From positions 124,001 to 188,000 of the forward strand of contig JAHEXY010000005.1 in NCBI GenBank assembly GCA_023251875.1: a stretch of DNA of 64,000 bases, read 5' to 3'. Origin of the DNA: Bacteroidota bacterium. GTDB lineage: Bacteria; Bacteroidota; Bacteroidia; JAHEXY01. The notes under the pieces are model-generated. The model saw only the letters and a list, made by a program, of their open reading frames with translations. It did no database searches and was not told where the DNA came from. Made by a program: the position numbers and the translations under genes. Below, piece after piece: positions 22,579 to 24,897 of this stretch (positions are counted from its first letter, which is position 1; each line of letters starts with the position of its first letter).

Positions 22579-23121
22579 TTATTTTTGATTTGTGGTTTTT
22601 ATCTTACAGTAAAAATCCCATAATACAATTCCTGCGCTCACAGAAATGTTAAACGAATGTTTGGTACCAAATTGAGGTATTTCAATACAGCTATCACAAG
22701 CATTAATAATTTCTTGAGCAACTCCGCTTACTTCATTACCAAATACTAAAGCATAAGTATTGTTTTTTTGAGGTGCGAAATTTTGCAAATGCATTCCACT
22801 TTCTACTTGTTCGAGAGCAATAAGGGTATACTTATTATTTTTTAATTCTTGAATGGCATCAATTGTATGGGTATAATGCTTCCATACTACAGATTCTGTT
22901 GCACCTAAAGCTGTTTTTTGAATTTCGCGATGAGGGGGTGTTCCGGTTACGCCACATAAATAAATGGCTTCAATTCTAAAGGCATCAGCTGTGCGAAAAA
23001 TAGATCCCACGTTATTTAAGCTGCGAACATTATCTAATACAACTACAATAGGTAGTTTATCGGCATCTTTAAATTGATGGGTAGAAATTCTATTAAGTTC
23101 ATGAATGCTGAGTTTTCGCAT
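22579..23121 (-). CDS. SpoU-family RNA methyltransferase (TrmH-like)
   Basis: 180-residue SPOUT methyltransferase, probably acting on the 2'-O of a tRNA or rRNA ribose. Motif 1 LDNVRSLNNVGSIFRTADAF, motif 2 ALVFGNEVSGV and motif 3 IEIPQFGTKHSFNISVSAGI, with the trefoil-knot order, are all present. I use the ATG at 23121 (MRKLSIHELNR); the frame could extend to 23244, but that would cover the adjacent divergent promoter and the fic start. It is a short SpoU without the N-terminal substrate-binding domain of RlmB. The exact nucleotide target is not readable. Confidence 0.88.
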   Translation of the reverse strand: MRKLSIHELNRISTHQFKDADKLPIVVVLDNVRSLNNVGSIFRTADAFRIEAIYLCGVTGTPPHREIQKTALGATESVVWKHYTHTIDAIQELKNNKYTLIALEQVESGMHLQNFAPQKNNTYALVFGNEVSGVAQEIINACDSCIEIPQFGTKHSFNISVSAGIVLWDFYCKIKTTNQK

Positions 23122-23199
23122 AAAAACAAGGCCTTTTAATGAATGATTCAATAACACATAAGCAAAATTGCCTTGGCAAAGAAACAGAAAAATAAATTG

Positions 23200-23207
23200 T
23201 ATTTTTG
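23200..23207 (+). promoter_or_regulatory. Putative fic promoter -7 element TATTTTTG
   Basis: A plus-strand TATTTTTG fits TAnnTTTG, 17 bases upstream of the fic ATG, giving only a very short leader. The candidate TTG at 23173-23175 is 24 bases away, longer than the usual spacing of about 20. Confidence 0.45.
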
Positions 23208-23224
23208 CATGAAAGAAATTTTGT

Positions 23225-24052
23225 ATGTATTCAGAATTTGACAATATAATAAGGGAATATAAAAATCAAGCCATTGTTTTGCCCGATCAGTGGCTGGATG
23301 ATAAAAAAGCTGAGTTTATTTATACTTCTAATAAACTAGAGGGGAATAGACTAAAGTTAGCCGAAACGTATAGTATTATCAAAGATAAAATGAACTTTTC
23401 AAGCGAGGCAAGGTTTAAAGATATCTTAGAAGTTAAAGGACATATAAAGGCCTTAGACACATGCTTGTTTATGGTAAAAAACAACTACCCATTAAGTACT
23501 AATACTTTAAAAACACTTAACAGTAATTTGTTATCTGCCTTATGGAAATTTGATGAATATTACTCAACCTGGAAACAAAACCAACAAGATTTGGGAGCAT
23601 ATAAACGTATTAATAATAGTATAAAATATACCCTTGATGGACAAGAAGGTACACTAGCGCCTGTATCAAACGCGGAAACAGTAGAAAAAAATATGGAAAT
23701 TATTTTCATTGACAATAATGCCATACGTCATATTTTGGAAAAAACCGCTCATTTAGCATATCAAATATGGATAAACCAACCTTTTCCGGATGGAAATAAA
23801 CGTACTGCTCGATTAGCTATTGTTTATATGCTTATGGCCTATGGCTTGCCCCTAGTCTCTTTTAAAGCGAGTGAACACAATTTTAATGAGGGTTTATTGC
23901 GTAGCCATTCTGAAAAAACTTTAAAACCCTTGATTCAGATAATCGATATAGAAGTAAAGCAACAATTGACTGAAATAATGGAATTAGACAAGCAATTAAA
24001 AATAAATAGAATCCCTCCTGCATTTGGACTTGGAGGTGTTTTGCTTTTTTAA
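23225..24052 (+). CDS. Fic family protein with altered catalytic motif
   Basis: 275-residue Fic-domain protein. The Fic core reads NQPFPDGNKRTAR: Gln185 stands where the catalytic His of HxFxDGNxR belongs, while Phe187, Asp189, Gly190, Asn191 and Arg193 are kept. The codon is CAA, one base from a His codon. The N-terminal stretch TSNKLEGNRL resembles the (S/T)xxxE(G/N) inhibitory helix. AMPylation would normally need the His, so the protein may be inactive, have another activity or work as a binding protein. It overlaps the convergent SDR gene by 4 bases at the 3' end. I see no antitoxin partner. Confidence 0.85.
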   Translation: MYSEFDNIIREYKNQAIVLPDQWLDDKKAEFIYTSNKLEGNRLKLAETYSIIKDKMNFSSEARFKDILEVKGHIKALDTCLFMVKNNYPLSTNTLKTLNSNLLSALWKFDEYYSTWKQNQQDLGAYKRINNSIKYTLDGQEGTLAPVSNAETVEKNMEIIFIDNNAIRHILEKTAHLAYQIWINQPFPDGNKRTARLAIVYMLMAYGLPLVSFKASEHNFNEGLLRSHSEKTLKPLIQIIDIEVKQQLTEIMELDKQLKINRIPPAFGLGGVLLF

Positions 24053-24897
24053 GAACGGCTAGCCAGCCCTGCCATTTTTTCACTTATTTCCCAGAGTTTT
24101 TTCCAACTTTCTTTATCTTGACTAGTACTTGATGGATTCGTAATTTTTTTCTTTGCAAAATATTTCCCACTTATATTTTCTACTTCAGAAGACGAAGCCA
24201 AATGGATAGAAGTTTCTGCTCCCTTTTCATTAGAAATTAAAAATGGCTGCACTAACATTATTACATATTCGTACCAATTTTTGCTTGTTTTTCCAAAATT
24301 AGAACCTACTAATCCGGGATGTACGGCATTGGATGTAATGCCTGTTCCTTCAAGTCTTTTAGCCAATTCATTTGAAAACATTAAAGTGTAAAGTTTCGCT
24401 TCGGCATATACTCTTGCAAAATCATATTTCTTTTTATTTTCAATATCATCCCAGTTTGGTTTGGCCATTGTATGTGCTACAGATGATAAATGAATAATTC
24501 TTGCTTTCGCTGTGTTTTTTATTGTATCCAATAAAAGATGGGTAAGTAAAAAGTGGCCAAGATGATTGGTTGCAAAAGTAGCTTCAATGCCATCAACAGA
24601 GTTTTCTCTTTGGCCAAAAATTAAACCTGCATTGTTAATTAATACATCAAGTTTTGAATGGTTTTGTGAAAATTCTTTTGCGGCTCTTCTTACATCATTT
24701 AGGCTCGATATATCGGCAATAATGATATCAATAGTATTGTTTTTTGTTTTTTCTATAATTTCTTTTTTTGCAATTTCTGCTTTTTCTTTATTGCGACATA
24801 CCATTACAATATGGGCTCCTTTTGAAGCAAGATCCATTGCTGTTGCTTTTCCAATTCCGGAATTAGCTCCTGTAATGAGTACAGTTTTATTTTTCAT
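24049..24897 (-). CDS. Short-chain dehydrogenase/reductase (SDR)
   Basis: 282-residue NAD(P)-dependent oxidoreductase. The cofactor loop TGANSGIGKATA is at residues 9-20, NNAGLIFG gives the NAG motif, HLSSVAH the catalytic Ser region and YAEAK the Tyr164/Lys168 pair; VHPGLVGSNFG follows. It resembles the retinol-dehydrogenase-like SDRs that are frequent in bacteria without a defined substrate. It is convergent with the Fic gene (4-base overlap) and lies downstream of infB on the same strand, separated from it by a dispersed hairpin repeat. Confidence 0.87.
   Translation of the reverse strand: MKNKTVLITGANSGIGKATAMDLASKGAHIVMVCRNKEKAEIAKKEIIEKTKNNTIDIIIADISSLNDVRRAAKEFSQNHSKLDVLINNAGLIFGQRENSVDGIEATFATNHLGHFLLTHLLLDTIKNTAKARIIHLSSVAHTMAKPNWDDIENKKKYDFARVYAEAKLYTLMFSNELAKRLEGTGITSNAVHPGLVGSNFGKTSKNWYEYVIMLVQPFLISNEKGAETSIHLASSSEVENISGKYFAKKKITNPSSTSQDKESWKKLWEISEKMAGLASRS

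Follow-up and report, generated by a model that had tools for sequence, protein, structure and literature searches.

The Fic-domain protein P0001, encoded in the window (the whole stretch of DNA analyzed, 64,000 nucleotides), is an intact, selected, stand-alone protein in whose lineage glutamine has been fixed at the position of the catalytic histidine. In the motif frame tested, Gln is a specific replacement for His, and it goes together with Lys, a Doc-like residue, at motif position 8. The catalytic His of Fic proteins is usually called invariant. The features of the locus are as follows.

22579 to 23244, minus strand: upstream neighbor, divergent, rRNA/tRNA-methyltransferase-like (open reading frame list, named by eye)
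23225 to 24052, plus strand: P0001, Fic-domain protein of 275 aa, stand-alone gene (open reading frame and translation, Pfam Fic match)
23327 to 23347, plus strand: class II inhibitory motif S35-N-K-L-E39-G-N41 (consensus match, family invariance, 3cuc alignment)
23621 to 23656, plus strand: predicted target-docking flap, strands 133-137 and 140-144 (AlphaFold2 model)
23777 to 23812, plus strand: Fic motif Q185-P-F-P-D-G-N-K-R-T-A-R196 (QPFPDGNKRTAR), aligned to HPFEDGNGR of 3cuc
24049 to 24897, minus strand: downstream neighbor, convergent with a 4-base overlap, short-chain-dehydrogenase-like (open reading frame list, named by eye)

P0001 matched the Pfam Fic profile PF02661 over its cut-off (E 1.4e-12, 48.7 bits, cut-off 24), and its start and length agree with those of the orthologue L039. 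Gln185, coded by CAA at 23777-23779, occupies the catalytic His position. The first-pass annotation had named a Fic protein with Gln185 in place of the catalytic His; the open reading frame, the Pfam match and the codon bore this out, and its motif coordinates and residues were exact. Canonical AMPylators have Gly at motif position 8 (GNGR) within the consensus HPFx[D/E]GNGRxxR. Compared with this motif, P0001 lacks both the catalytic His (Gln185) and the position-8 Gly (Lys192, giving a Doc-like GNKR), while D189, N191, R193 and R196 are present and invariant in 7/7 family members. The further claim that the rest of the motif was kept is right for the broad Fic/Doc consensus and wrong at position 8, Lys here and Gly in the AMPylators. 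Lys192, passed over in that annotation, is a second departure from the AMPylators, and one that the Gln accompanies.

P0001 is an orphan, with neither a small partner gene nor an antitoxin beside it; directly upstream, in place of an antitoxin gene, lies the divergent methyltransferase-like gene. The listed TTG start of that gene overlaps the Fic gene, and an internal Met near 23122 is the likelier start. Both neighbors are outside the P0001 system. The GC content of the P0001 gene resembles that of the flanking DNA and so gives no sign of recent import. A promoter and terminator scan at P0001 yielded seven promoter-like sites, near the 5.1 expected by chance, and no terminators. The source genome (4.8 Mb, 23 contigs) holds 11 Fic matches including P0001, and motifs were read for nine of them (the two on C19 and C15 are outside the count): seven carry His and two carry Gln. 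The second Gln-Fic, distantly related to P0001, is a 345-aa wHTH-Fic protein at G000:C17:40319-41353 (L006, L203); its N-terminal part resembles a winged helix, matching Pfam Penicillinase_R below the cut-off, and its motif is QPFEDGNKRTAR (QPFEDGNKR). A RelE/ParE-like gene, named by eye, lies nearby.

The N-terminal segment that had been read as resembling an inhibitory helix does so: T34-S35-N36-K37-L38-E39-G40-N41 matches the class II consensus [S/T]xxxE[G/N] and aligns with SNHLEGN of 3cuc. An AlphaFold2 model of P0001, built from a seven-row family alignment, had a mean pLDDT of 74.5 and a pTM of 0.76; in the flap region (residues 131-150) block means were 65-70, a moderate confidence at which strands 133-144 are predicted to fit the Fic flap. 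Nearly the whole length of the model was matched by C. elegans Fic-1 (Z 26.0), human FICD (Z 24-25) and 3cuc (Z 24.4). The last, BtFic (Bacteroides BT_2513), is also the nearest solved sequence (E 1.8e-12); it superposes with an rmsd of 2.5 over 239 residues at 24% identity and has the SNxLEGN segment in common with P0001, but its motif is HPFEDGNGR, that is, His with Gly. FICD/HYPE and C. elegans Fic-1 share the fold (Z 24-26 over about 225-237 residues), and FICD has the class II inhibitory Glu and the RxxR, as P0001 does. FICD differs in its TPR domain, absent from P0001, and in His363, which is present and essential. In the Foldseek/VIA structure lists for the model, no chain was recognized as bearing Gln at the catalytic position, an absence from which nothing follows. 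P1 Doc and P0001 both have Lys at motif position 8; P1 Doc has His, lacks the second Arg and is partnered by the antitoxin Phd. P0001 scored below the cut-off of NCBIfam DOC_P1 (26.6 bits against 38.65), and against the PADLOC profiles of candidate anti-phage Fic proteins, which come with no cut-offs, it gave E 2e-18 (PDC-S04) and E 6.4e-15 (SoFic).

Two other genomes encode relatives of P0001 with Gln coded by CAA at the same codon: L039, a Bacteroidetes MAG whose orthologue equals P0001 in length and is 59% identical to it, and L010, 38% identical (ambiguous bases in L010/L187 were read as X). Four more distant members of the family (L011, L190, L191 and L192) keep His in the motif HAFFDGNKRMTR. 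In the seven-row alignment of three Gln and four His proteins, S35, N36, L38, E39, G40, F187, D189, G190, N191, K192, R193 and R196 are invariant. No clear His, Asp, Glu, Cys or Tyr stand-in for the lost His was seen by eye in this alignment, and H169 of P0001 is kept in only some of the seven rows. Between P0001 and L039, dN was 0.29 and synonymous differences were saturated. The family is rare: in a class-wide protein search in which at most six candidates per genome were scored, matches with E ≤2.5e-30 came from three of 395 class genomes, the source genome included, and all others were at E 5e-15 or weaker. A four-row profile gave full-length matches in 4/46 genomes of one order and 1/7 of another, and among 99 relatives in the source genome alone. 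No relatives of P0001 were found in viral contigs or, by tblastn, in genome contigs, and a plasmid search returned only two Listeria Fic matches at 29%. In L039 (3918-5975), a small nucleotidyltransferase gene, over the cut-off for NTP_transf_2, precedes the orthologue by 35 bases; a second nucleotidyltransferase gene and a HicB-like gene follow downstream, and a conjugation-coupling-protein lookalike adjoins.

Gln in place of His was also found in other Fic groups. The exact pattern QPFxDGNKRTA, which selects for Gln, occurred in at least 118 stretches of the species-genome collection, from Bacteroidota, many Patescibacteria, actinobacteria, Lactobacillaceae and others. As an unselected test, 395 genomes of the phylum were searched with the wHTH-Fic protein of the source genome. 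Its close relatives (E <1e-80, query excluded) had Gln in 6/6, even with Ala or Gly as the next residue; the next group (L210-L217, eight loci, E 1e-38 to 1e-31) had Gln with DVNKR in all seven readable motifs; and the D, N, K and R of the motif were kept alongside Gln in both. These counts leave out L212, whose motif was missed by the expression, and L230, a contig-end fragment without the motif. The weaker matches with a readable motif (14 loci) had His with GNGR. Among the first 25 listed pairs of Gln wHTH-Fic genes, those with a finite ratio gave dN/dS of about 0.05-0.11; the Gln wHTH-Fic proteins are under strong purifying selection. The L210-L217 proteins are about 390-530 aa long and combine Gln with an unusual DVNKRVSR (Val for the first Gly), preceded in some of them by the segment WASSRLEGNTYS.

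The coupling of Gln to Lys was examined in IMG/VR viral contigs with the frame XPFxDGNKRT and every residue allowed at X. His was found 60 times, Gln six times and any other residue never, which holds both for codons not starting with C (0) and for the C-starting Leu, Pro and Arg codons (0); all 66 stretches read [H/Q]PFxDGNKRT in one frame. By eye, the six Gln stretches were of wHTH-Fic, lactobacillar, actinobacterial, Doc (two) and Bacteroides type. With Gly at position 8 (QPFx[DE]GNGRT), the same contigs yielded no Gln against at least 120 His. The difference between Lys and Gly at this position was significant (Fisher p = 0.0017, with His taken as 120 and kinship ignored). QPFx[DE]GNGR was absent from a sample of 395 phylum genomes, and in an earlier sample of 395 [H/Q]PFxDGNKR was read with Gln in five of 68 listed places, two of them in the source genome; these samples and that of the wHTH-Fic search share one draw rule, and their listed handles agree. 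The motif frame with position-1 codons not starting with C was absent from 257 phylum genomes. The pattern results apply to otherwise intact motifs; decayed motifs would escape them.

In a tree of 55 Fic cores (26 Gln and 29 His rows, Docs left out), the P0001 family formed one clade (100/100) of three Gln and four His rows; the remaining 23 Gln rows fell into a separate clade (97/98). P0001 thus groups with His-bearing Fic proteins, apart from the large Gln group. The sequence set excluded motif ORFs under 100 aa, rows under 70% coverage had been dropped for the first tree (182 to 147), and the Parabacteroides locus L132 was represented by its neighboring His-Fic, among the 29 His rows, its Gln-Fic being missing from the 26. 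Forcing all Gln rows together was 23 log units worse (p-AU 0.0487), for a grouping named after the first tree had been seen. Two origins of Gln within Fic are favored by this comparison, not shown; a return from Gln to His may have occurred instead.

Gln-Docs were found at seven loci in stored sequence, with a small gene directly upstream or overlapping in 6/7. In the same count, a small gene lay upstream of 28/38 short His proteins; the count required an ORF not cut at a contig end and with an ATG 35 or more codons ahead of the motif, and L085 and L125 were read separately. Four of the upstream genes tested against Pfam MazE antitoxin matched, three over cut-off and one below; that of L099 was a fifth match, below cut-off, that of L125 is MazE-like by eye, and L085, the seventh locus, has only a similar C-terminal stretch upstream. 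The Doc of L099 itself scored over the NCBIfam Doc cut-off. This toxin-antitoxin layout speaks for the Gln-Docs being active toxins and is no proof of it. The antitoxin genes ahead of the Gln-Docs at L099 (5613-6223), L103, L123, L125, L240 and L241 are MazE/AbrB-like, not Phd.

The replacement of His by Gln has already been published as an observation on sequences. Khater and Mohanty (2015; PMC4454073), in the part consulted, describe a Doc-subfamily clade, 'D2', of 45 mostly single-domain sequences with Gln for His and the motif Qx[F/Y]x[D/E][G/V]NKR, and argue that it is possibly not dead. QPFPDGNKR of P0001 fits this motif, with the same Gln and the same Lys at position 8; set against the description of D2 rather than its sequences, P0001 differs in its N-terminal class II inhibitory segment. 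As excerpted, PMC4177925 states that in Doc a Lys at position 8 forces an inverted ATP pose and predicts that members of this kind act as kinases, and PMC8401265 that a side chain at this position would interfere with β/γ-phosphate binding in the AMPylator pose. No measured activity for any Gln-Fic was found in the open-licence literature searched. In the portions of it consulted, we have not seen in print the position-8 coupling without a third residue, nor a self-inhibited Fic family that carries His except in a Gln subgroup.

Our preferred reading, held tentatively, is that P0001 is a self-inhibited Fic protein that binds a nucleotide and carries out a Doc-like phosphotransfer to a target, in which Gln orients the acceptor; this chemistry is what we infer. 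The active site would still bind Mg-nucleotide through Asp189, Asn191, Arg193 and Arg196, probably in the Doc-like orientation, since Lys at position 8 would crowd the AMPylator pose. The flap would hold a target, to which a phosphate-containing group would then be passed. Gln is not a general base; Gln185 would instead hydrogen-bond and orient the acceptor, in place of a true one, and Glu39 would hold the protein off until a signal releases the inhibition. Growth control and phage defence are typical roles of Fic proteins. The data speak for a kept, regulated nucleotide site and for a specific role of Gln, and on these grounds we favor this chemistry. The second Arg and the inhibitory Glu, both present in P0001, belong to AMPylators and not to Doc, and so the Doc-like pose of P0001 is not secure; P0001 being an orphan, the argument from toxin-antitoxin pairs comes from other Gln groups. 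The annotation had called an inhibitory helix pointless in an inactive enzyme. This puzzle fades if P0001 is not dead, the inhibitory Glu, the Mg-binding Asp, both Arg and the Asn being invariant in 7/7 members.

The main rival, close behind phosphotransfer in probability, is a pseudoenzyme or reader, in which P0001 would bind a nucleotide or an AMPylated or phosphorylated target without turnover and act as antagonist, trap or regulator of other Fic proteins. In the excerpt of PMC8373988 consulted, the complex of His-to-Ala FICD with AMPylated BiP is trapped and long-lived, and in that of PMC8401265 the non-canonical Fic protein BepC signals by binding, no enzymatic activity having been found. 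The source genome supplies 10 further Fic matches as possible counterparts, and in L132 a Gln-Fic adjoins a His-Fic. A mere binder, however, should not need exactly Gln, and no third residue occurred in the frame tested; the Mg-binding Asp and inhibitory Glu are kept throughout the family; and Gln-Docs are arranged as toxin-antitoxin pairs. A His-Fic beside a Gln-Fic within the stored stretch is also rare, at 2/118 Gln loci among the matches listed.

That AMPylation persists, with Gln185 a weak substitute for His and P0001 a slow canonical AMPylator, seems improbable, and the earlier judgment that canonical AMPylation is unlikely was sound. P0001 keeps Arg193, Arg196, Asp189 and the inhibitory Glu, which characterize AMPylators, and PMC4454073, as consulted, cites an IbpA His mutant that retains some AMPylation and a His-to-Gln alcohol dehydrogenase that retains some activity; but no Gln accompanied the AMPylator-type Gly in IMG/VR or in the 395 genomes sampled, and the position-8 side chain is said to disturb β/γ-phosphate binding (PMC8401265, in part). 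A recent loss or strain mutation, which the annotation had considered, or a sequencing error at 23777-23779 in a dying gene is very improbable and is rejected. CAA is one base from CAC/CAT, but independent genomes encode the same Gln in proteins 59% and 38% identical to P0001, Gln is fixed in a large separate Fic group across many phyla, the reading frame is intact and the gene is under purifying selection.

Two further candidates were rejected. A Gln-Fic as partner of a neighboring His-Fic, in the style of C. fetus Fic1/Fic2 (the model given in the part of PMC5651007 consulted), would apply to 2/118 listed Gln loci, and none is beside P0001. A dedicated deAMPylase without His is disfavored by the excerpts consulted: PMC8373988 describes the FICD His as the essential base in AMPylation and reports that its mutation eradicates deAMPylation, and PMC6408439 that EfFIC loses deAMPylation on His to Ala.

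More broadly, and less probably than either phosphotransfer or binding by P0001 itself, the Gln-Fics may be convergent active enzymes without a general base, in which His gave way only to Gln and only once position 8 was Lys, so that Gln with Lys would constitute a second mode of phosphate-group transfer in the Fic fold; P0001 would have arisen independently of the wHTH-Fic Gln group while keeping the AMPylator-type Glu switch. Whether Fic chemistry needs a base becomes directly testable with a Gln variant that is under selection, goes with one other motif position and occurs in Fic, wHTH-Fic and Doc toxin-antitoxin settings; P0001 is a good subject because the same small family offers natural His-bearing members for comparison.

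In the adjoining pair of Parabacteroides (L132:250-3560), a gene that is DUF3791-like (below cut-off) immediately precedes the Gln-Fic, and the His-Fic and a DUF3990-lookalike gene come next; relatives of this Gln-Fic occur elsewhere, at L121, L147 and L243.
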